A DNA stretch of 41,120 nucleotides from Mariniphaga sp. (lineage in GTDB: Bacteria; Bacteroidota; Bacteroidia; Bacteroidales; Prolixibacteraceae), in contig JAAFHB010000018.1 in assembly GCA_010906965.1 (NCBI GenBank), positions 1-41,120 of the forward strand, read 5' to 3'. Position 1 is the first letter of the stretch. Each line of letters begins with the position of its first letter. Shown in pieces: positions 14,339 to 29,495 of the stretch. The position numbers and the translations under genes are program-made. A model generated the notes under the pieces. The model was given only the letters and a program-made list of their open reading frames with translations. It made no database searches and was not told the DNA's origin.

Positions 14339-14806
14339 TTAATTTGTCCATATTTTATCTGTTGTAACGCCATGGCAACTGTTACATTGACCAGTAGTTA
14401 TTGCAGTGGTCATATATTTAGGCCCTGCGATACCTTTAACTGACACATATAAACCGCTCCCAAAATCGATGTTTTCGGTGGTATAAAAGTTACCCGCAGC
14501 ATCTCCCCAAATAGTGTATTTTAGTGTACCTGTTCCGTTAATTCCAGTATACAAATTTACAGTAGTATTTGCATATGCATTGATTTTTGCATTGTCGTAC
14601 GCAGATCCTGCAACTGTAAACCAACCCTCGCCCGAGCCATTCGAGGAATGACAACTCATGCAATTTTGTCCTGTATGATGACTTCGGCTTGTACCATTGG
14701 CACTCACTTTTTGTTCGTTCTCACCTTCTTTCCCGCACGATAGAAGAACAATCATCAACAGCGGAAAAGCCAGCGCAAGTGATGTTCTCAATTTCAATTT
14801 TAACAT
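14339..14806 (-). CDS. Lipoprotein with two c-type haem motifs
   Basis: About 155 residues from the ATG at 14806, chosen because it gives the lipoprotein signal MLKLKLRTSLALAFPLLMIV-LLSC (Cys24) and does not overlap the upstream gene. The mature protein has CMSCH at 49-53 and CNSCH at 141-145, at the two ends of a beta-rich middle (GWFTVAGSAYD, VNLYTGINGTG, GLYVSVKG). Both are CxxCH covalent haem-c sites, so a membrane-anchored electron carrier is likely. The middle domain is not a classical cytochrome c fold by eye. Lies 13 bp downstream of the propeller gene. Confidence 0.75.
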   Translation of the reverse strand: MLKLKLRTSLALAFPLLMIVLLSCGKEGENEQKVSANGTSRSHHTGQNCMSCHSSNGSGEGWFTVAGSAYDNAKINAYANTTVNLYTGINGTGTLKYTIWGDAAGNFYTTENIDFGSGLYVSVKGIAGPKYMTTAITTGQCNSCHGVTTDKIWTN

Positions 14807-14819
14807 TTTCAACGTATTA

Positions 14820-16067
14820 TTATTTTTCCTGAATGTCATAAGCCATTAAAGACTTGCCATGCCTAATGTACATTGTTCCATTGGCAATAACGGGATGCGA
14901 GAAATGTTCTTTGGTCCCTTTATCCACCTTAAATTTGCTGATCTCCGTAAATTTATTGTTTTCAAATTTAATCAGTTTCACATCGCCCGTTTCGTTGTAG
15001 CAATAGAACTTGCTATCGGCATAAATAAGGCTCCCTTTGTTTGCCGATAACGAATCGACCACACTTCCTGTGCTTGTATCAACACATACCAATCTCTTTT
15101 TCTTCGTAGTTGTGAATAAACGGTCATCAAGCTTGATAAAGCCACCCTGCGCATTTGTCACATCTTTGTTCCGCCACACTTCTTTAATGCTTTTTCCATC
15201 GGCAGATAATTCAAGTTTTACTGCTCCGTTGGCAGCTTCTTCGCCGGCTGTGAAATAGATAAAACCATCGGCATAGATGGGTGTATTGCAATGTAATTTT
15301 TCGAATGCGAAATTGTCGAGTGTTTTTGTTGACCAAAGCAACTCCCCGTTTTGTGCATCAACACCAAAAACAAAGTGAGCGGAGATAGTCACTAAAATCT
15401 TTCGGGCCGGTAATGTGATTAAAAGTGGTGAACAAAAAGCGGCCGTATCTCCCATTGCTTTCGATTGCCAGATCGTTTTACCAGTGAATCTGTCTAAGGC
15501 AACCACATTGTGTGTGATTCCTCCGGCCATAAAATAAACTTTGTCGCCATCAATCAGTGGTGATTCAGCAAATCCAAACATATTTTCAATACCACCCAGC
15601 TCAGGAACCATGTCAACCGCCCATTTTTCTTTACCTGTAGCCAATTCATAACCAGCTAACCGGCCTTTCCCGGAACTCGCATAAACAAGATCGCCTGCAA
15701 TGGTAGGAGTCGAGCGTGAACCGGGGAAACTGGCCGAAAATCCTTTCCCGTAATATTCTTTCCCGTTTGCCGTTTTCCAGAGCAATTTGCCTTTCAGATC
15801 GAATGCAAATAAATAACTTGTACTATCTGCTTCGCCATTGATCAGCAATTTATCGTTTGTCACAACAGGAGCAGCATAACCCTGACCAACCTCTTCATTA
15901 AACCAGAGAAGCTCAGGTCCTTTTTCGGGCCACGACTTCATCAGTTTGTTTTCGTTGTAAATACCGTCACGATTGTCGCCGCGCCATTGATATACTTTCT
16001 GTCCAATGCTTTGGTGTGCTGTAATTAGCAGAATGATAAGAACAAAAATGGATTGTAAGTTTTTCAT
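14820..16067 (-). CDS. PQQ-like beta-propeller protein
   Basis: About 415 residues from the ATG at 16067, which directly precedes a signal peptide (IFVLIILLITAHQSIGQ); longer in-frame starts lack it. The mature part is built from repeated blades with motifs such as LFAFDLKGKLLWKT, LAGYELATGKEKWAVD, VVALDRFTGKTIWQS and VFGVDAQNGELLWST, the W-motif repeats of PQQ-enzyme-like eight-bladed propellers. It begins WRGDNRDGIY, as in Bacteroidota and Planctomycetes propeller proteins. No dehydrogenase catalytic residues are identified, so it may bind rather than oxidise. Operon partner of the di-haem lipoprotein. Confidence 0.85.
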   Translation of the reverse strand: MKNLQSIFVLIILLITAHQSIGQKVYQWRGDNRDGIYNENKLMKSWPEKGPELLWFNEEVGQGYAAPVVTNDKLLINGEADSTSYLFAFDLKGKLLWKTANGKEYYGKGFSASFPGSRSTPTIAGDLVYASSGKGRLAGYELATGKEKWAVDMVPELGGIENMFGFAESPLIDGDKVYFMAGGITHNVVALDRFTGKTIWQSKAMGDTAAFCSPLLITLPARKILVTISAHFVFGVDAQNGELLWSTKTLDNFAFEKLHCNTPIYADGFIYFTAGEEAANGAVKLELSADGKSIKEVWRNKDVTNAQGGFIKLDDRLFTTTKKKRLVCVDTSTGSVVDSLSANKGSLIYADSKFYCYNETGDVKLIKFENNKFTEISKFKVDKGTKEHFSHPVIANGTMYIRHGKSLMAYDIQEK

Positions 16068-16150
16068 GGTTTTCAATGGATTATTTAAAATATTTAGGCT
16101 CAGCAGTTCATTATAAAGTGATTGAATGTTACAAATATCGAAAGCAAGGT

Positions 16151-16777
16151 TTAGTCTAAATTGCGTAGCTTTTTTTGCAGATACCAAATAACAATTCCAC
16201 AATATTGTCTTTTCTTACCTAAAATATCGGGATTAATAAACTCAAGCAATTTATTTTGCAACTCCGCTTTTTTCCATTTTCGTTTTTCAAGAGCATATCG
16301 AATACCATCGAGGGTTTGGAATCTATTGTTTTTAAGCCTTTCGCTATTGAGCTTAATAACACTATTAATTTCCTGATTCCAAATTTCATTGGATGATCTG
16401 ATTGTTCCATCTTTCGATGAGTACGTGATACTATTCTGAAGAGCAATATTAAAAAGGGGAAGAGAAATTGAACTAGTTCCTTTTGATTTATCACAATGTT
16501 CATTGCCATCAATAAATCCGGGACAACAAATAACCATGTTCTCATATTCTAATTCGAGGTCAGGATTATCGGCTCTGCATTTAATATGATCGATGCGCGA
16601 CGTTTCTATATTTCCCAGATCTTTAACTGGAATTGTGCGCATGCAATAAGCACAAATAAAACCTTGCTCCGTCAGAAGGGCATTTCGTAGATCATCGGTA
16701 GCCTGATAGACAACACCGGGAGTATTTCTATACCGTGTCCAGGAGGTAGGCGCATTTCCCTTATTAATCTTTATCAT
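16151..16777 (-). CDS. ptuB: Septu system HNH endonuclease PtuB (TIGR02646-like)
   Basis: A 208-residue HNH nuclease. Zinc and catalytic residues are visible: C42xxC45 (CAYC), D63-H64 (SRIDHIKCR), N80 (ENMVICC) and H94-C95-D96 (NEHCDKSKGT). The opening MIKINKGNAPTSW and the length of about 200 are typical of the TIGR02646/PtuB family, the nuclease of Septu and of Septu-linked retrons. The start lies 4 bp after the stop of the ATPase gene, in the conserved ptuA-ptuB order. In Septu, PtuA and PtuB form a complex whose nuclease acts on infection. No retron reverse transcriptase is present here. Confidence 0.85.
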   Translation of the reverse strand: MIKINKGNAPTSWTRYRNTPGVVYQATDDLRNALLTEQGFICAYCMRTIPVKDLGNIETSRIDHIKCRADNPDLELEYENMVICCPGFIDGNEHCDKSKGTSSISLPLFNIALQNSITYSSKDGTIRSSNEIWNQEINSVIKLNSERLKNNRFQTLDGIRYALEKRKWKKAELQNKLLEFINPDILGKKRQYCGIVIWYLQKKLRNLD

Positions 16778-16781
16778 TAAC

Positions 16782-18044
16782 TTAACGCAGAAAGTTCAAC
16801 ATAGATTCAGCTTTTTGCAGCTCGGGCAGCGAGTCTCCAAACCGCACTTTCATTTTGTCGAGCAAAAGGCTTGCCTCTGAATATTTATCATCATCAATTG
16901 TCTGAAAAAGAGCGTTCAGTTCATCATCAACCTCCTTTGATCGCGGAATAGTGTCAAGGGCGACATTAATAATGCTCGAAGCATCCATCCCATAAAGTTC
17001 GACTGCATGTACTTCGTAATCATTCTCTTTTGTATAACTAAGCTTATAGATAATGTTCTCTTTATCCGTTTTAATGCCTGTCATTACCATTGGTGCATGA
17101 GTAGTTACAATAAATTGCAAATTAGGGAAAGCATTTTGCAATCCAGGTAGTACCAATGACTGAAGACCTGGATGTAAATGAAGATCTATTTCATCAATCA
17201 ATACAGTACCCGTTGTTTTCAGACAAGCATCCTTTCCATATATACCCTGATTTAAAAGTGCGCAGCGAAATGCTAAATCGGTGACGATATTTACTAACCT
17301 TGTATAACCATCTGATAAATTTTCGGCCATCACTTCGCGGCCATCAATAAGATAGTAATACACGTGTCCCTGATTAGGTCGAATTTCCATATCATTGATG
17401 ATATTGCAACCATCAGAACCTAGTGTTTTTTGTATAGATTGACGTACACTTGCTAATTCAAGTTCTCCTTTCCCACCTTCTTTTAAAATCAAAAGGCGCT
17501 TAATCCAATACTGAAAGAAGCCATCACCCTGCAAACATTCGTAATAACCAAACGAAGGTTTATGAGTGTATTGCTTAAATGGAGTCATTGATAACTTTCT
17601 GATACTATGAATGTCTTCAGTTGAAAAACTGGCAAATAATGGCAGTGCTCTCTGTTGGTTATTCTTTTCATCAAAAAGCGTTTCTTTTAATTCCTTCCCA
17701 TAATTTAAAATAGATATAAGAGGAATCTGTAAAGTTCTTCCTTTTGCAGAGTTTAATATTAAGAAAGACAATTGACTAAATATTTCAAAACGTATCGTTA
17801 TAGGCGCCTCATTTACAATGCTGTGCTTCGTCTCCTGTACTGTAAAATCGGCTTTCGATAATCCGTTAAAACGGGTGTTTTCATCACTGTAACCAGTAAA
17901 GAATGAACTCAATACATGACGAAGTGCCCTAATGATTGTGGTTTTTCCGCTGGAATTATCCCCAATAAGCAAGTTGACTTTCTTTTTAAAAGAGAGATCC
18001 AGTTTTTTAAAGCACCTGTAATTTGTCAATTCAATCCTTTCCAT
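16782..18044 (-). CDS. ptuA: Septu system ATPase PtuA
   Basis: A 420-residue ABC-type (SMC/OLD-like) ATPase. Walker A is GDNSSGKTT at 28-36, an ABC-like signature LSDGYTRL at 243-250, Walker B VLIDEIDLHLHP at 281-292, and a switch His in VTTHAP at 313-318. After 360 there is a helical C-terminal tail (DDELNALFQTI, LLLDKMKVRF). No TOPRIM nuclease domain is visible, unlike OLD proteins, which fits a PtuA that relies on the adjacent HNH nuclease. First gene of a two-gene operon with its own promoter. It is on the shorter side for PtuA from memory. Confidence 0.82.
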   Translation of the reverse strand: MERIELTNYRCFKKLDLSFKKKVNLLIGDNSSGKTTIIRALRHVLSSFFTGYSDENTRFNGLSKADFTVQETKHSIVNEAPITIRFEIFSQLSFLILNSAKGRTLQIPLISILNYGKELKETLFDEKNNQQRALPLFASFSTEDIHSIRKLSMTPFKQYTHKPSFGYYECLQGDGFFQYWIKRLLILKEGGKGELELASVRQSIQKTLGSDGCNIINDMEIRPNQGHVYYYLIDGREVMAENLSDGYTRLVNIVTDLAFRCALLNQGIYGKDACLKTTGTVLIDEIDLHLHPGLQSLVLPGLQNAFPNLQFIVTTHAPMVMTGIKTDKENIIYKLSYTKENDYEVHAVELYGMDASSIINVALDTIPRSKEVDDELNALFQTIDDDKYSEASLLLDKMKVRFGDSLPELQKAESMLNFLR

Positions 18045-18094
18045 AACGCCCTATTTAATACAATCGATACTTCACAAAACATTTAAACTCATGT

Positions 18095-18125
18095 CAAAGA
18101 TACATAATTGGCACAATAAACGAAA
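18095..18125 (-). promoter_or_regulatory. Promoter of the Septu operon
   Basis: On the minus strand the -7 element is TATCTTTG (18095-18102), an exact TAnnTTTG, 50 nt upstream of the ptuA ATG. TTTCG (18121-18125) lies 18 nt further upstream at about the expected -33 position, one base off TTTG. It overlaps the dyad at 18118-18140. Confidence 0.5.
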
Positions 18126-18140
18126 TTCTATATTTCGTTT
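18118..18140. repeat. Perfect 9-bp inverted repeat over the Septu -33 region
   Basis: AAACGAAAT (18118-18126) and ATTTCGTTT (18132-18140) are exact reverse complements separated by TCTAT. Its place on the -33 region suggests an operator, but no regulator gene lies next to it. Confidence 0.6.
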
Positions 18141-18230
18141 CATTTTAAAATATTTCCTTCATTAATTCTGAGTTAATCAAATACTTAACTTTTGCGGATA
18201 AAATTAATCACCCGGCCACTTTATATAAAC

Positions 18231-18266
18231 AGAAACCCGGTCCTGTTTTGAACAAGCCGGGTCTCT
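18231..18266 (-). terminator. Terminator of the glucan-utilisation operon
   Basis: AGAAACCCGG (18231-18240) pairs with CCGGGTCTCT (18257-18266). The single mismatch on the plus strand (A18234/C18263) becomes a G-U pair in minus-strand RNA, so the hairpin is best formed in transcripts of the GH30 gene, which stops 42 bp upstream. The T run after it is weak (TTTCTGTTT is partly inside the stem). Confidence 0.55.
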
Positions 18267-18308
18267 TCTTTACAAAGCGAACACTCTACTATCTAAACTA
18301 ACAATTTT

Positions 18309-19736
18309 TTACCAGACATATGTACCGACAGCATCTTTTTCCAATGAGGTGGGAACTGTTTTACCATTAAAGCTGACATTGAAAACTTTCTTTCCACCGG
18401 TGTTATTTTGAACGATCAATACCTTCTTTCCATCGGGATTCTTAAAGGCGACATTAGGAAGACTTGAAGTTGAATTAGAAGCGATACGAACTGATCCGGG
18501 TCGTACAAATTTTGCAGCATGGGCAAGAACATAGTAGGCTGGATTTCGGGTTACGTTATTCCCATCAATGGTGATGGTACCCAAACATTGGTCGCAACCT
18601 CCAACCGTATGCGGATCGTTATTCGGATCGGCAGCAAGGTTCCATTCCAATACATTGCGGCACCAGTTACGCGTTGCTCCGATAATAAGGGTACGAACAT
18701 GCCAAGCAAGATCACCTGCAAGATTTCCCGGAGCGCCTACCCATTGTTCGGTGAAATAGAGATTCTTATCCGGGAAGGCTTCATGAACAGGCGTTAGCGC
18801 TTCGATTTTGCCTCCGTAAAGATGAAAAGCCGAGCCGTCGACATATTTTGATGCTTCCGGATCGTTGAATATCGTCAAAGGATAATCGGGACGGTCGGCA
18901 TTGTGATCGTAAACAATAATTTTAGTTTTAATATTTGCCGCTGCAAATGTTGGTCCGAGACTGCGTTTAATAAACAGTGCCTGATCTTCGGCTGTCATAT
19001 ACATACTCGGATTATTCCCCGGATGCAAAGGCTCGTTCTGAATCGTTATCGCATCTATTGTAATCCCTTCAACTTTCATTCCCTGGATATACTTCACGAA
19101 ATATTTGGCATAGGCATCAAAATACTCCGGTTTTAAACTTCCGCCTTTCGAATTGTTATTCGTTTTCATCCAGGTTGGTGCTGACCATGGAGATCCCATC
19201 AGTTTAATGTTGGGATTGATGGCCAATATCTCCTTCAGTACAGGAATCAGATCAATCCTGTCGGCATCGAGCGTAAATTTAGCCATCGAAGGATCGGTTT
19301 CTCCCTCGGGAAGATCGTTATACGAAAAAACCTTTGGATCTAAATCGGATGCGCCAATACTAACACGCAAATAGCTAATCCCGATATTATTACCATCGGT
19401 GGCAAATAACTCTTTCAGGATTGCGCTCCTACTTGTAGCATCCATTTTATGTAACAGTGTTGCGCTGCCGCCTGTCAGACAGTTTCCAAATCCATCGATG
19501 GTTTGAAAGATTTGCGTGGTATCAACTGTGATCGACTGATCCTGATTAATCAGGTTGCCAAAGGCTAAACCAGCCGGCTGAAGCTTAAATAACACATTCG
19601 ATTGAGGACTTGTCAGCCAAAATGCCAAAGTAGTTTTAGACGCTTCGTTGAGATCGGTGGGTTTATCCCCGGCGACGTTTCCTTTGCAGCTTTGAAAGGA
19701 TAAAAGGGCAAATAAAATGATGAAGTAGTATTGCAT
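18309..19736 (-). CDS. GH30 family glycoside hydrolase (beta-1,6-glucanase or glucosylceramidase type)
   Basis: A 475-residue lipoprotein (signal ending LLSFQSC, Cys17). The TIM barrel follows FQTIDGFGNCLTGGSA. The acid/base glutamate is E235 in TIQNEPL and the nucleophile E330 in LYFTEQW, with MGSPWSAPTWMK, as in GH30 subfamilies 1 and 3. A C-terminal beta-sandwich (VLIVQNNTGGKKVFNVSFNG) is the usual GH30 side domain. With GH16 and GH3 in the same operon, a beta-1,6-glucanase that removes or cuts branches of laminarin-like glucan is the best guess; subfamily assignment needs alignment. Last gene of the operon. Confidence 0.9.
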   Translation of the reverse strand: MQYYFIILFALLSFQSCKGNVAGDKPTDLNEASKTTLAFWLTSPQSNVLFKLQPAGLAFGNLINQDQSITVDTTQIFQTIDGFGNCLTGGSATLLHKMDATSRSAILKELFATDGNNIGISYLRVSIGASDLDPKVFSYNDLPEGETDPSMAKFTLDADRIDLIPVLKEILAINPNIKLMGSPWSAPTWMKTNNNSKGGSLKPEYFDAYAKYFVKYIQGMKVEGITIDAITIQNEPLHPGNNPSMYMTAEDQALFIKRSLGPTFAAANIKTKIIVYDHNADRPDYPLTIFNDPEASKYVDGSAFHLYGGKIEALTPVHEAFPDKNLYFTEQWVGAPGNLAGDLAWHVRTLIIGATRNWCRNVLEWNLAADPNNDPHTVGGCDQCLGTITIDGNNVTRNPAYYVLAHAAKFVRPGSVRIASNSTSSLPNVAFKNPDGKKVLIVQNNTGGKKVFNVSFNGKTVPTSLEKDAVGTYVW

Positions 19737-19759: not shown

Positions 19760-20593
19760 TTATTTTGTCGTATAAACCCGTACATAATCGACAATCATCG
19801 ATCGCGGGAATATCGTATCATCAATTCCCTTTGCACCACCCCAATTGCCGCCTACAGCTACATTCAACAGCAAGTGAAACCGTTTATCGAATGGCCAGAC
19901 TTTGTAACCGGTGCCTTCATTCTTAAAAGTAAAATATAAAGCATCATCAACATAAACACGGAACTCACTAGCTTCCCATTCGAGGGCATATACATGAAAA
20001 TTTGTATAACAGTCAGCTACCGTCATTCTGTTGCTCTTCTGTGTTCCAATGACATGATAATACGATTCGGTATGACCAGAGGCTACAATAACGTAGGGGT
20101 CGTATCCTACATTTTCCATTATATCAATCTCACCGCTCGCAGGCCATCCGCCATATGCCCAATCGGTCGGAAGCATCCAGATTGCAGGCCACATTCCACG
20201 TCCGTCGGGTAGTTTTGCCTTTACCTCAATTCGACCATAAAGCCAGTCACCCTTTGTGCGGGTAACTAAACGGGCAGAAGTGTATTTGAAACCCTCGTAA
20301 TCTTCCTTGATTGCATTAATAGAGAGGAAACCACCCTTTACTTCTGAGTTTTGTAACCGGCCACTTGTATAATATTGCTTTTCATTATTCCCCCAACCGC
20401 CGGAATTACCATCCGTATCATAACTCCATTTGTTTGGATCGGGAAGTCCTGTATAATCAAACTCATCACTCCAAACCAGGGTTTTTGTTCCGGATCCGGG
20501 CTTTATTCCGGGAGGAGCTGTGTTTTTGGCCGGAGTGCAACCCTGTGTCATCAAAGAATATAAAACCAAACTTATAATTACGAATCCTTTCAT
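19760..20593 (-). CDS. GH16 family endo-beta-glucanase (laminarinase type)
   Basis: A 277-residue lipoprotein (lipobox LMTQGC, Cys19). The GH16 catalytic motif is GEIDIMENVG with nucleophile E155, helper D157 and acid/base E160. Flanking motifs are WSDEFDYTGLPDPNKWSYD, GGWGNNEKQYYT, GRGMWPAIWMLP and HVYALEWEASEF, the usual order of GH16_3-type beta-1,3(4)-glucanases. It would cut beta-1,3-glucan at the surface or in the periplasm. It lies between GH3 (79 bp upstream) and GH30 (23 bp downstream). Confidence 0.95.
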   Translation of the reverse strand: MKGFVIISLVLYSLMTQGCTPAKNTAPPGIKPGSGTKTLVWSDEFDYTGLPDPNKWSYDTDGNSGGWGNNEKQYYTSGRLQNSEVKGGFLSINAIKEDYEGFKYTSARLVTRTKGDWLYGRIEVKAKLPDGRGMWPAIWMLPTDWAYGGWPASGEIDIMENVGYDPYVIVASGHTESYYHVIGTQKSNRMTVADCYTNFHVYALEWEASEFRVYVDDALYFTFKNEGTGYKVWPFDKRFHLLLNVAVGGNWGGAKGIDDTIFPRSMIVDYVRVYTTK

Positions 20594-20672: not shown

Positions 20673-22934
20673 TTATTTAACTATAAACACACTGTGCAGA
20701 CCTTCATCCGAATTTGGTCCGACCCAGATATCAAATTCACCAGGTTCGATCACATTCTCTTTTCCATTGAAGAATTCAAGTGCAGAGGCGGGAAGTTCAA
20801 ACGTCACGCCAACCGTTTCGCGACTTTTCAAATGTATTCTTTTAAATCCTTTCAATTCTTTCACCGGACGCGTGATGCTTCCGACCCTGTCGCGAATATA
20901 GAGCTGAACAATTTCATCAGCATCAACATTCCCATCATTTAACACAGATGCTTTCACGGTAAGGCTTCCTTTACTGTCCATTTCGGATGATGAAAGGATT
21001 ATATTGCTGTACTTAAATGTTGTATAACTTAAACCATAGCCAAACGGGAAGAGTGGCGTAAATCCATAATCGAGGTGAAACGATTTATAACCTAACGAAG
21101 CCTGACTATTTATGACGGGAATACTGTCCATTGGTGTCCATGATTTTGCATTTGCAGGACGACCCGTATTATTGTGGTAATAATAGAACGGAATCTGACC
21201 TGAACCTTTTACAAAGGTAACAGGAAGTTTCCCCGATGGTGACTCCTTGCCAAAAATAAGATCGGCCAGCGCAGGACCGGCCATCGATCCGCCATGAAAT
21301 GCATAAAGCAATGCATTCGACTTTTCAACAACCTTTCCGATCGCTAAAGGACGGCCTGCCATTACGACAACAATCAAAGGTTTCCCGGTTTTCGCCAGCT
21401 CTTCGATCAGCTCTTCCTGAACTCCCGGAAGATTAATTTCGCCACGGCTTTGACCTTCGCCCGAGAGAATCCATTCTTCACCGGCAAAGAACAAAATGGC
21501 TTGTGATTTCTTTGCTGCCGCGATTGCCGCAGCAAAACCGGTTTTACTTTTGTCGCGGCTATATTTTAGTCCGGCTGCAAAATTAACTTTCGAATCGCCC
21601 AATACCTCCTTAATGGCGGTCAATGGTGTAACCGAATTTTCGGCTTTACCATCGAAAACCCATGTTCCAAGCTGGTCGCGTGGCGCATCGGCCAATGGTC
21701 CGATAACAGCGACTGAAGAAATGCCGGCAGAGAGCGGAAGCGTATTAGGATCATTTTTCAGGAGGATTGCACTTTGCCGGGCGACAGTTCGTGCATGATC
21801 GAGGAAGTCAGGTGAAAGCATTTGCTTCTCCGCTTCAGGATCGACATAAGGGTTTTCGAATAAACCGAGTTTAAACTTTACCCTCAATATATTTTTCACA
21901 GCCTCATCAATCATTGTCTGATCCACCTTGCCTTCGGCAATAAGTGTTTTAAGATGTTTGACATAGGTTGTACTTGACATTTCCATATCAACTCCTGCGG
22001 TAATTGCTTTTAATGCAGCTTCCTTTTCATCCGCACAATAACCATGAGAGATCATTTCTGAAACAGAACCCCAGTCACTCACCACCATGCCATCGAATTT
22101 CCACTCCTTGCGAAGTACCTGGCGCAAGGTAAATTCATTACCAGATGTAGGAACACCATTTAAGTCGTTAAATCCAGACATAAATGTCAATACTCCGGCC
22201 TCTTTTGCAGCTTTGAAAGGTTTAAGAACCACATTCCGAAGAACGGGTTCCGAAATATAAGTTGTATTGTAGTCGCGGCCTCCTTCGGCAAATCCGTAAC
22301 CCACAAAGTGTTTGGCACATGCTGCAACGGCAGTTGGATCGGTGAGTTGTTCTCCCTGGATTCCTTCAACCATTGCTTTTGAAAAGGCGGAAGCAAGATA
22401 AGGATCTTCGCCACACCCTTCGGCAATCCTTCCCCAGCGAGGATCCCAGGTGATGTCTATCATAGGGGCAAAAGTCCATTTAATTCCCTGGGAAGAAGCT
22501 TCGGCAGAGGAGATGCGAAATGCCTTTTTTACGACCTCAGGATTCCATGTAGCCGCCATACCCAATGGGATGGGAAAAATGGTCCGGTAACCATGAATAA
22601 CATCGCGGCCAATTAGCAGAGGAATCTTCAACCGACTCTCCTCCATCGCTATCTTTTGAAGTGCATTTATTTTCGCAACACCGAAAACATTTAAAAAGGA
22701 ACCGTAATTACCATCACGGACTGTTTTATTAATTTGATCGACAGACATATAGCCAGGATCGATCTGAGACATTTGTCCTATTTTCTCATCAAGCGTCATC
22801 TCCGAAAGTAGGTTATTCACCCGACTTTCAATATCGTTTTTTTTAGGTTCTGGTTGTTTGCAAGAAGAGGTACACAGAAGAGAAGCAAATAAATAAATAA
22901 TAAAAAGGGAGGGTTTTATCAACTGATAAATCAT
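20673..22934 (-). CDS. bglX: GH3 family periplasmic beta-glucosidase (BglX type)
   Basis: About 753 residues from the ATG at 22934, preferred over one at 22955 because it gives a tight lipoprotein signal (MIYQLIKPSLFIIYLFASLL-CTSSC). It follows E. coli BglX order: TLDEKIGQM, GRDVIHGYRTIFPIPLG, DPRWGR, KHFVGYG, then the nucleophile Asp in MVVSDWGS (about residue 287). A GH3 C-terminal domain (ILLKNDPNTLPL, VVVMAGRPLAI) and a fibronectin-III-like end follow. It removes terminal glucose from beta-gluco-oligosaccharides. First hydrolase of the operon, 66 bp after the PKD gene. Confidence 0.95.
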   Translation of the reverse strand: MIYQLIKPSLFIIYLFASLLCTSSCKQPEPKKNDIESRVNNLLSEMTLDEKIGQMSQIDPGYMSVDQINKTVRDGNYGSFLNVFGVAKINALQKIAMEESRLKIPLLIGRDVIHGYRTIFPIPLGMAATWNPEVVKKAFRISSAEASSQGIKWTFAPMIDITWDPRWGRIAEGCGEDPYLASAFSKAMVEGIQGEQLTDPTAVAACAKHFVGYGFAEGGRDYNTTYISEPVLRNVVLKPFKAAKEAGVLTFMSGFNDLNGVPTSGNEFTLRQVLRKEWKFDGMVVSDWGSVSEMISHGYCADEKEAALKAITAGVDMEMSSTTYVKHLKTLIAEGKVDQTMIDEAVKNILRVKFKLGLFENPYVDPEAEKQMLSPDFLDHARTVARQSAILLKNDPNTLPLSAGISSVAVIGPLADAPRDQLGTWVFDGKAENSVTPLTAIKEVLGDSKVNFAAGLKYSRDKSKTGFAAAIAAAKKSQAILFFAGEEWILSGEGQSRGEINLPGVQEELIEELAKTGKPLIVVVMAGRPLAIGKVVEKSNALLYAFHGGSMAGPALADLIFGKESPSGKLPVTFVKGSGQIPFYYYHNNTGRPANAKSWTPMDSIPVINSQASLGYKSFHLDYGFTPLFPFGYGLSYTTFKYSNIILSSSEMDSKGSLTVKASVLNDGNVDADEIVQLYIRDRVGSITRPVKELKGFKRIHLKSRETVGVTFELPASALEFFNGKENVIEPGEFDIWVGPNSDEGLHSVFIVK

Positions 22935-22952
22935 TTTTATCTGAATTAAGAA

Positions 22953-22984
22953 CATTGCTTACCGGAACAAACCGGCAAGCAATG
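22953..22984 (-). other. Intercistronic 13-bp hairpin inside the glucan operon
   Basis: CATTGCTTACCGG (22953-22965) pairs with CCGGCAAGCAATG (22972-22984) across a 6-nt loop. The one plus-strand mismatch (A22961/C22976) is a G-U pair in minus-strand RNA. It sits between the PKD gene stop and the GH3 start and is not followed by a T run, so a transcript-end stabiliser or partial terminator is more likely than a full stop. Confidence 0.7.
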
Positions 22985-26426: not shown

Positions 26427-29400
26427 TTAAAATGTAATATTCACTCCACCAAGCATTGTAAGGGCTTGCGGGTAGATTCCATGATCGATTCCATTACTGA
26501 AAACACCACCACCTATTTCAGGATCAAATCCCTTATAATTGGTGAAAGTGACCAGATTCTCGGCTGATACATAAAACCGAATTTTAGAAATTTTCAGGTA
26601 TTCGGAAGCCACTTTTGGCAGTGTGTAACCAAGACTGACATTTCTTAACCTTATGAAACTTCCGTCATGAACAAAAAAGTCACTCACGGTTTTCATATTC
26701 ATATTGTCGTCTACAAATGTGACGCGCGGGTAGGTATTTGTAGTTCCTTCTCCTGTCCAGCGATTCAACCATTCGGCCCGGTAATTTGTGCCATTCATAT
26801 CATATCTCCTGGTCGCATCATAAACGTCCTGTCCCAATGCGGCATACCAAAACATAGTAAGGTCAAAACCTGATAGTTCGAAATTTAAATTCAAACCACC
26901 TGTAAATTTGGGGTAAGGAGAACCAATGGCCACGCGGTCGAGATCAGTGATCGTTCCGTCACCATTTTGATCGATAAATTTAATATCTCCCGGTTTGGCT
27001 TTAGGTTGGATTTTTGCACCAGTCGAGCTCAGGTAACTGTCAATTTCGGCCTGATTCTGGAAGATTCCATTGGTCTTTACGCCGTAAAAAACACCCATAG
27101 GAGTTCCGACTTCGGCATATAGAATACCTGCCTGGCCAAATCCTCCATCACCACCCTGTAATCTTTTCTCAGAATTGCGGATGTCGAGTACTTCGTTTTT
27201 ATTATAGGCTCCATTTACTGAAGCATCAAAATAAAGTTTGCCGAAATTGTTCTTGTAACCTACTTCAGCTTCAATACCTGAATTACGAACAGATCCTCCG
27301 TTAATCGTTGGTGCAGAATTTCCCACAAGCATCTGAACAGGGGCAACAACAAGCCAGTCTTTGGTAGTTTTGATGTAATAATCGAGGGTAACCCTTAATT
27401 TGCTTTTCATTGTGGTGAAATCAACGCCAAGGTTAGTTTGTTCTGAGGTTTCCCATTTTAACGATGGGTTAGCAATACCTCTGGGTTGAGTTCCGTTATA
27501 CTGTGTTTTGCTATCACCAAAATAGTAGATATTCTGATTTCCAATAATGGACGTATATCCGAAATCTCCAATGTTTTCACTACCATTCTGACCCCAGCTT
27601 GCCCTTAACTTTAGCATATCGATAAAACCTGCAGTATTGCTCATAAAGCCTTCCCTGGACATTACCCATCCCAATGCAGCAGAGGGAAAGTAGCCGTATT
27701 TATTTTCAGCGCCAAATCTGGAAGAACCATCTTTGCGCAATGTAGCAGTTAACATATACCGTTCCTTTAAGTCATAGTTGACCCTTCCAAATAAAGAAGC
27801 CACAGTATGTTCGGAATATCCGCCCCCGACGCTCGCACTTAGCGGGTCTGTGGCATTATCAAGGTAAGAATGTTCAAAATCGTCAAAGATCAGGTTAGAT
27901 TTTGAGCCCGAAATATTTTCATACATATCTTTGAAAGCAGTTGTACCGGCCATTAATGTAAAATGGTGAATGTCAATTGTTTTATCGTATGTAAATACAT
28001 TTTCAAAATTCCATCTTGAATACAGATCCATGCTTTTTGAAGCTTTATCCACAATTGTGAAATGCATGGCATCCAGGTTATAAAGCGGGGTATAGGTATC
28101 ATTGGTAACCAAAGCCATCTCACCGCCAAAACTGGATTTAAAGGTTAATCCCTTCAATGCAGGGTTCAGATGACCAAAATCGAACTCTGCAAAAACTCCA
28201 GCAATAACCTTATTGGTTCTTGTTTTGGAATTATTGTAGCTAAGCAGCCCCACCGGATTTGTAATCTCCTGGAGTCCGACTCCAAAATCTTGAGGAGTTG
28301 CCCATGTGCCATCAGAATAAGTCACTGGAATAATAGGAGGCATATTCAATGCCTGGGCTAGCGGACCGCCAAAATGATCGTTCGTAGCAACTCCTTTGCT
28401 AGTGATATGTGCAAGGTTGATATTGCCACCAACTCTCAGAAATCCAAAATTCCCGGTGGTATTTAAACGGTATCCGAATTTCTCGTAATTCGATTTCCCT
28501 TTGGCTACAATACCATCTTGTTTAAAATAGTTAAGTGACGAAGAGTACTCCAGTTTATCGCTGCCTCCATTCATCGAGATCGAATGGCTTTGTTTAGGTG
28601 CATTGTAATTGAACACCTCATCCTGCCAGTCAGTATTGGCAGTAAATCCCGCGATATCGGACGGGGAAAACTTGGGAGCAAGCCCTCCGTTAATAGCAGC
28701 CTCATTGGTGAGCATCGTATATTCGCTGCTATTGAGCAGGGGGATTTTTTTCCAGGGATTCTGAACGCCGTAATAACCATCGTAATTAACGACCATCTTT
28801 GATCCTTTTTTACCAGTTTTAGTAGTAATCAGCACGACCCCATTTGCACCGCGGGCTCCGTAAATTGCACACGAAGCAGCATCCTTTAAGACTTCAATTG
28901 AAGCGACATCATTTGAATTCAGGAAATCGGTTCCGGCGCCGCTCATCGGCAGCCCGTCGATAATATACAGTGGTTCTGCATCACCGTTGGTTCCTGTTCC
29001 ACGAATACGAACAGAAACCTGGTCACCCGGCTGGCCTGATCTGCTTGCAATGACCACGCCTGCGGTCTTTCCCTGCAATGCCTGTGTGACCAGCATGTCA
29101 GAAGCTTTCTTCAGCTCATCACCACTTACTTTTGATATTGCACCTGTAACCAGGCTTTTCTTTTGTGTTCCATAACCAACGACCACAACCTCATCAATAT
29201 TTTCGTAAGAATTGGCTAAGATTACATCTATTTTTGTGCGATTGTTTACAGGAATTTCCTGCGTTTTTAATCCAACAAAAGAAAATACGATGGTTGAGTT
29301 ACCAGGAACAGTTAAGGTATAAACGCCATCAATATTAGTAGTAATACCAGTTGTTGTCCCTTTCACAACAACACTGGCACCCGGGATTGGCAGTCCGTCG

Positions 29401-29495
29401 TCGGCTGAGGTAACGACCCCTTTCAATTGTAATCCCTGCCCATAACCGGTTAGTGAGATTACAATAACTAAAAGAACCAAAATTGTTTTTTTCAT
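26427..29495 (-). CDS. SusC/RagA-family TonB-linked outer-membrane transporter
   Basis: A 1022-residue outer-membrane protein. Signal peptide ends near GYGQ (20); a carboxypeptidase-regulatory-like domain follows (LKGVVTSADDGLPIPGASVV), then the TonB-box-like stretch IDEVVVVGYGTQ, a plug (SGQPGDQVSVRIRGTG, PLYIIDGLPMSG) and a 22-strand barrel ending in ...GGVNITF, an aromatic C-terminus needed for outer-membrane assembly. It imports oligosaccharides with energy from TonB. First gene of the operon; leader of 269 bp upstream. Confidence 0.97.
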   Translation of the reverse strand: MKKTILVLLVIVISLTGYGQGLQLKGVVTSADDGLPIPGASVVVKGTTTGITTNIDGVYTLTVPGNSTIVFSFVGLKTQEIPVNNRTKIDVILANSYENIDEVVVVGYGTQKKSLVTGAISKVSGDELKKASDMLVTQALQGKTAGVVIASRSGQPGDQVSVRIRGTGTNGDAEPLYIIDGLPMSGAGTDFLNSNDVASIEVLKDAASCAIYGARGANGVVLITTKTGKKGSKMVVNYDGYYGVQNPWKKIPLLNSSEYTMLTNEAAINGGLAPKFSPSDIAGFTANTDWQDEVFNYNAPKQSHSISMNGGSDKLEYSSSLNYFKQDGIVAKGKSNYEKFGYRLNTTGNFGFLRVGGNINLAHITSKGVATNDHFGGPLAQALNMPPIIPVTYSDGTWATPQDFGVGLQEITNPVGLLSYNNSKTRTNKVIAGVFAEFDFGHLNPALKGLTFKSSFGGEMALVTNDTYTPLYNLDAMHFTIVDKASKSMDLYSRWNFENVFTYDKTIDIHHFTLMAGTTAFKDMYENISGSKSNLIFDDFEHSYLDNATDPLSASVGGGYSEHTVASLFGRVNYDLKERYMLTATLRKDGSSRFGAENKYGYFPSAALGWVMSREGFMSNTAGFIDMLKLRASWGQNGSENIGDFGYTSIIGNQNIYYFGDSKTQYNGTQPRGIANPSLKWETSEQTNLGVDFTTMKSKLRVTLDYYIKTTKDWLVVAPVQMLVGNSAPTINGGSVRNSGIEAEVGYKNNFGKLYFDASVNGAYNKNEVLDIRNSEKRLQGGDGGFGQAGILYAEVGTPMGVFYGVKTNGIFQNQAEIDSYLSSTGAKIQPKAKPGDIKFIDQNGDGTITDLDRVAIGSPYPKFTGGLNLNFELSGFDLTMFWYAALGQDVYDATRRYDMNGTNYRAEWLNRWTGEGTTNTYPRVTFVDDNMNMKTVSDFFVHDGSFIRLRNVSLGYTLPKVASEYLKISKIRFYVSAENLVTFTNYKGFDPEIGGGVFSNGIDHGIYPQALTMLGGVNITF

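Follow-up and report, generated by a model that had tools for sequence, protein, structure and literature searches.

The window, a stretch of 41,120 nucleotides from a contig of Mariniphaga sp., carries two adjacent genes on the minus strand, ptuA and ptuB, between a propeller gene and a glucan locus. The features referred to below are the following.

14820-16067: propeller gene, PQQ_2/BamB-like.
About 16139-18230: inserted stretch, delimited by blastn against genome G008, with a GC content of 35.7% as against 40.3% for the window.
16151-16777, minus strand: ptuB, an intact open reading frame for an HNH nuclease of 208 residues, 4 bp downstream of ptuA.
16782-18044, minus strand: ptuA, an intact open reading frame for an ABC-type ATPase of 420 residues.
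18091-18104, minus strand: putative promoter block TGTATCTTTGACAT, containing TAnnTTTG, which begins 58 bp upstream of ptuA.
18118-18126 and 18132-18140: perfect 9-bp dyad AAACGAAAT-5-ATTTCGTTT, from the inverted-repeat search.
18231-18266, minus strand: terminator-like hairpin, an inverted repeat downstream of the GH30 gene, at the right border of the insert.
18309-19736: GH30 gene of the glucan locus.
19760-20593: GH16 gene of the glucan locus.
20673-22955: GH3 gene of the glucan locus.

The initial annotation had described the pair as an insert between the propeller gene and the glucan locus; the flanks are as it stated, and comparison of the locus in relatives reveals a patchy presence. 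Blastn homology to G008, a genome of the same genus, ends at 16138 and restarts at 18233, and in G008 the same PQQ-propeller and GH30 genes enclose 327 bp without a blastn match and no ptuAB. To the eye, this replacement stretch (L063 2830-3156) resembles a series of imperfect repeats, each some 25 bp long (TTTTAACGCnGGnGAAA). The hairpin on the GH30 side has a counterpart in G008, although it is absent from the output of the terminator scan. Insertion with a target-site duplication was considered and rejected: no convincing duplication was found at the insert, the best matches between the flanks being four of 6 bp. The genome that contains the window is assembled in 509 contigs and is 99.57% complete, with contamination given as 7.93%, but DNA identity between the insert's flanks and those in G008 is 78-83%, which makes it unlikely that the contig is foreign. 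Judged from these alignments, ptuAB is carried as a variable insert. Positions 14339-14839 of the window encode a protein of 166 residues with CMSCH and CNSCH motifs that looks by eye like a c-type cytochrome, has no Pfam match, and is present in 2 of 18 congeneric genomes, including that of the window.

The coordinates, the 4-bp gap, and the motifs quoted for the two reading frames in the initial annotation are all present in the translations. In PtuA these are the Walker A lysine, Lys34 (GDNSSGKTT), an LSDG motif at residues 243-246 (LSDGYTRL), the Walker B residues Asp284 and Glu285 (VLIDEIDLHLHP), and His316 (VTTHAP); Lys34, Asp284, Glu285, and His316 are invariant in an alignment of 25 PtuAs. 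The protein matches the PADLOC PtuA model PDLC00272 over residues 1-419 (6e-165) and the Pfam families AAA_15 and AAA_21. Its best match among proteins of solved structure is E. coli PtuA (8ee4, 1.1e-37), followed by retron-type PtuAs. An AlphaFold2 model of the single chain, built with 25 sequences, has a mean pLDDT of 82.7, and its best Foldseek match in the PDB is a Septu entry (8eea, 6.3e-28); the best 50 of 249 matches at an E value of 0.001 are all Septu or retron entries, with TM-scores (by query length) of 0.60-0.73 and rmsd values of 4-12.6 Å. PtuA had been called short, and its length is indeed 420 residues, but this does not distinguish it, the best PADLOC PtuA model having a length of 444 and E. 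coli PtuA 465.

PtuB contains Cys42 and Cys45, Asp63-His64, Asn80, Cys84 and Cys85, and His94-Cys95-Asp96, in which Cys42, Cys45, Cys85, and Cys95 are zinc-type cysteines and His64 and Asn80 form the HNH site. In an alignment of 23 PtuBs, Cys42, His64, and Asn80 are invariant and Cys45, Cys85, and Cys95 nearly so. The PADLOC PtuB model PDLC00322 matches residues 1-206 (6.2e-60), but the Pfam HNH family stays below its threshold (17.1 versus 21.4). Against proteins of solved structure, the single sequence finds the PtuB of Ec83 weakly (0.014), together with one unrelated chain (0.48), whereas a profile built from eight PtuBs matches the solved PtuBs of Septu and retrons. The AlphaFold2 model of the single chain (23 sequences) has a mean pLDDT of 89.2, and the ten best Foldseek matches in the PDB are all Septu or retron PtuAB entries, the top one being 8eea (2.7e-7).

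A PtuA-family ABC ATPase thus lies next to a PtuB-family HNH protein with no reverse transcriptase found beside them; a canonical pair of this kind is Septu type I in the PADLOC scheme, which assigns pairs linked to a reverse transcriptase to type II or retron I-A (PMC8565338). Homology and the predicted folds together make it highly probable that the pair is a stand-alone (type I) Septu system for defence against phages, made up of the ATPase PtuA and the HNH nuclease PtuB. The PtuA-PtuB assignment of the initial annotation is thereby upheld, the PADLOC models matching both proteins nearly end to end and the folds agreeing best with Septu and retron PtuAB. The pairing recurs on viral contigs: of the 80 best loci among 103 relatives, 68 have a ptuB-like gene no more than 300 bp away from the PtuA homologue. 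What counts against the Septu reading is the weak structure match of PtuB, the TM-scores and rmsd values of the PtuA fold matches, the broken ptuB of the nearest relative, and the position of both proteins below the curated cut-offs of NCBIfam models that are of retron type: PtuA scores 207.1 bits against NF041760 (cut-off 500), and PtuB scores 78.5 bits against NF041761 (cut-off 150) and 44.0 bits against TIGR02646 (cut-off 52.15). The expectation that the HNH protein would hit TIGR02646/PtuB models therefore holds strongly for the PtuB models, but the TIGR02646 score falls short.

The PADLOC models ATPase_I-A and HNH_I-A also match the pair (3.7e-64 and 3.4e-27), and in the PtuB tree the window protein falls in one set with some PtuBs linked to reverse transcriptases (98/94), as would be expected if the pair were a remnant of a type I-A retron that has lost its reverse transcriptase and ncRNA. 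This is very unlikely, since all 16 of the 16 PtuAs linked to reverse transcriptases in the PtuA tree form a separate branch (92/96, below the star mark) and the other parts of such a retron, a reverse transcriptase and an msr-msd ncRNA upstream, were not found: a motif scan of the window revealed no reverse transcriptase, in agreement with the initial annotation, and positions 16000-18400 have no Rfam match. A scan of window open reading frames of at least 100 residues for the [YF]xDD motif of reverse transcriptases found it only in a TonB-receptor gene (26427-29495) and in the GH16 gene. In addition, the alignment of Ec78-type PtuA begins only at about residue 67, and the window PtuA is without that N-terminal part. 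The retron remnant was accordingly rejected on the separate branching of the PtuAs and the missing reverse transcriptase. A restriction-type or OLD-, RloA-, or PARIS-like nuclease unrelated to Septu would share the ABC-ATPase superfamily (AAA_15 and AAA_21), and the PADLOC model of AriA does match PtuA (8e-23). However, the PtuA models score far above those of OLD-type ATPases and AriA, the phmmer match with OLD (6p74) is confined to residues 2-48, the partner is an HNH PtuB, and the folds agree with PtuA and PtuB. As the initial annotation stated for PtuA, there is no TOPRIM domain, the domain or partner that characterizes OLD, Gabija, and PARIS systems, in the Pfam matches of PtuA and PtuB or in the 25 PADLOC matches listed for each. 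On the PADLOC and phmmer scores, the grouping with RloA or OLD-type ATPases that would have spoken against Septu was rejected and is extremely improbable. Finally, the closest relative of the pair, in G013, is broken in ptuB, which raises the question of whether the window copy is also decaying and nonfunctional. This is very unlikely, as both of its reading frames are intact with all motif residues kept, and the 86, 31, and 217 differences from the G013 PtuA at the first, second, and third codon positions over 420 codons show a third-position excess that is the mark of purifying selection on the compared sequences. The preferred reading is thus that of an intact stand-alone Septu.

The leader of ptuA carries TATCTTTG. 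The exact 14-base block is found at −58 in the window and at −60 in G013, a relative with 79% PtuA identity, and contains TAnnTTTG, which we take to be the Bacteroidota −7 consensus. When the 190-bp leader was shuffled 2000 times by mononucleotide, TAnnTTTG occurred somewhere in 24% of the shuffles. Because the leader beside the block is still partly alignable to that of G013 (to 18110 by blastn and slightly further by local alignment), the exact match is moderate evidence only. A promoter of its own, as originally proposed for the window ptuAB, is therefore partly supported by the compared leaders: the block common to G013 speaks for it, but a sigma-70 scan of 16000-18400 returned no site on the minus strand. 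The dyad is likewise present and is a perfect 9-bp repeat, with an equally good one in 1.2% of the leader shuffles, but the G013 leader has none as good, which led to its rejection as a conserved operator. A structured leader RNA was also rejected (fold z of −0.94). In two genomes from the family to which the window genome belongs, a small regulator of the HTH_3 type immediately precedes ptuA (L006 1184-1492 and L007 1146-1481).

PtuA matches at an E value of 0.001 occur in 50 of 101 genomes, including that of the window, but many are short stretches. At 1e-60 only three others among the 101 are reached: G013 (79% identity), G083 (66%), and G015 (62%). In samples of the class, phylum, and order, which overlap, this level is attained in none of 394 other genomes of the class, in one of 394 of the phylum (G500, 58%), and in one of 392 of the order (G083 again). 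The clade of window-type PtuAB is rare, with five members known. Within the genus, 4 of 18 genomes have a PtuB match, namely those of the window, G013, G015, and, remotely, G012; among four genomes from the surroundings of G500, the one with a member is G500 itself. A single-protein scan of viral contigs found no relative, and the plasmid and phage collections yielded matches of 25-37% identity only (4 and 5 records, respectively). In G013 the ptuA reading frame is open but ptuB (L034 1501-2010) has an internal TGA stop and lacks its end, so the module is dispensable there.

The window pair itself is ordinary; the new item is the BREX setting of its nearest relatives. In three of the four (58-79% PtuA identity), the pair occupies the space from brxC to pglX in a BREX operon: around ptuAB, PADLOC names PglX, BrxC, and BrxB in G015 and BrxA, BrxB, BrxC, and PglX in G083, and the same four genes are found in G500, confirmed by profiles as for G083. 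The genes are tightly spaced: in G500 the two ptu reading frames overlap, and only 11 bp separate the end of ptuB from pglX. In G015 a Schlafen/AlbA_2 open reading frame separates brxC from ptuA. By tblastn, no brx genes were found in the window or in the 14 kb around ptuAB of G013. A BrxC search at 1e-10 gave no match in the window genome; in G013 it turned up a single, different BrxC (41%), which lies on another contig. The window pair therefore lies outside a brx operon, the site that defines accessory effectors of BREX type 1.

The BrxC proteins of the BREX hosts of window-type ptuAB are 72-75% identical. BrxC was found at 1e-150 in 21 of 395 genomes of the phylum, and, leaving aside G500, G760, and G689, the stretch behind brxC was compared in the remaining 18 and at two more loci; in 17 of these 20 loci the BrxC end and the PglX start are both visible, and none of the 17 has window-type PtuAB between them. 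By these comparisons, window-type ptuAB is the mark of one BREX lineage. Other modules occupy comparable positions. In G525 (L099 777-4775), the gap between brxC and pglX holds two ABC-ATPase genes, each followed by a small partner gene and not PtuAB-like as far as seen, and in G645 (L106 7100-8997) a distant PtuAB pair directly follows pglX of another BREX locus. The brxC-pglX gap thus accepts various ATPase modules, and, from the G645 pair, PtuAB has probably been recruited by BREX more than once. Schlafen/AlbA_2-like reading frames recur beside brxC or pglX (L065 7969-9501, L071 13737-15122, and several of L098-L112); these calls are from tblastn, with Pfam used for L065 7969-9501 only. According to a 2026 survey, HNH proteins linked to OLD-type ABC ATPases form dyads at BREX loci and are putative backup effectors (PMC12839542); the words Septu and PtuA are absent from its main text. 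In the literature as accessible to our search, no description of Septu inside BREX was found.

In the PtuA tree (76 rows), the window and G013 proteins pair (100/99) and are joined by the BREX-embedded copy of G083 (99/94) and then by those of G015 and G500 (100/100), whereas E. coli Septu and the PtuAs linked to reverse transcriptases are placed elsewhere. In the PtuB tree (30 rows, with the broken G013 copy left out), the window, G015, G083, and G500 form one clade (100/100) whose internal order is not settled. A BREX-embedded module may thus have been the ancestor of the window pair, though the direction is unproven. We regard it as an even chance that the lineage is a former accessory module of BREX that left the brxC-pglX slot and now stands alone with its own promoter. 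This is favored by the order brxC-ptuA-ptuB-pglX in three of the four nearest relatives, one with an extra reading frame, by the nesting of the window pair among BREX-embedded copies, by the missing BrxC match in its genome, and by the promoter block common to both stand-alone copies. On the other side, parsimony is tied, since an entry into BREX followed by an exit takes as many steps as two entries, and the PtuB tree leaves the place of the window among the four open. The nearest copy to the window PtuB is that of G015 (55%), but among BREX-embedded copies the nearest to the window PtuA is that of G083 (66%); moreover, the identities of BrxB and BrxC between the three hosts show no clear parallel to those of PtuA, and the sample has five members only. 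Since the slot and the BREX lineage are identical in three hosts, we lean to an exit from BREX. Such an origin refines the identification as Septu and does not exclude it, the mechanism still being Septu-like.

In studied homologues, PtuA oligomerizes and holds PtuB, as titles of PDB entries also imply. By analogy, an oligomer of the window PtuA would carry PtuB, and on phage infection the complex would cut nucleic acid through the HNH site at His64 and Asn80, so that phage production would fall and growth of the infected cell would be arrested. The trigger and target are here extrapolated from homologues at about 25% identity. Two reports indicate that Septu EcB88 cleaves the variable loop of tRNA-Tyr upon T6 infection and loses immunity on substitution of Walker (Lys43 or Asp316) or H-N-H (His75 or Asn91) residues (PMC13096335), that PtuAB of retron-Eco7 depletes tRNA-Tyr, that tRNA is unlikely to be the target of retron-Eco4, and that Septu of E. 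coli ATCC25922 reportedly acts on nicked DNA (PMC11555353). The window pair has Lys34, Asp284, His64, and Asn80 where EcB88 has Lys43, Asp316, His75, and Asn91, an equivalence based on motif and spacing and not on alignment. From these homologues, a tRNA would tentatively be the slightly likelier target, and phage DNA would be a candidate of nearly equal probability. The zinc-type PtuB of the window resembles the retron forms more than that of 8ee7 does, but these cysteines leave the target undecided, because the PtuB of Eco4 (Ec83) has them and yet likely spares tRNA.

It is about an even bet that this small Bacteroidota PtuAB clade serves one BREX lineage as a built-in backup effector, closely packed between brxC and pglX, and has here escaped as an autonomous Septu with its own promoter. 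If so, whole effector modules would pass between BREX, retrons, and stand-alone defence. The clade offers a natural experiment in which related PtuABs (58-66% PtuA identity) are found inside and outside BREX; if the embedded copies acted only once BREX is inhibited, whereas the free ones responded to phage by themselves, what triggers Septu could be mapped by comparison in laboratory strains.

Among known systems, the window pair is most like E. coli Septu (8ee4, 8ee7, 8eea, and 8sux), which likewise combines a PtuA ATPase with a PtuB HNH protein and is the best fold match for both, although PtuA identity in the fold alignment is only about 24% and the E. coli PtuB retains in alignment just Cys42, the first of four zinc-type cysteines in the window protein. 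Septu EcB88 (PMC13096335) is also a stand-alone pair with Walker and H-N-H residues and the same spacing of 16 between His and Asn (His75/Asn91 versus His64/Asn80 in the window); this likeness is one of motifs and spacing, and cleavage of tRNA-Tyr is a feature of EcB88. The effectors of the type I-A retrons Ec78/Eco7 and Ec83 are homologous PtuA and PtuB proteins but work with a reverse transcriptase, and their PtuAs have 542-552 residues in most PDB sequences. The dyads of ABC ATPase and HNH protein reported at BREX loci (PMC12839542) share the setting of three of the four nearest relatives, whereas the window pair stands outside BREX in a genome without a BrxC match.
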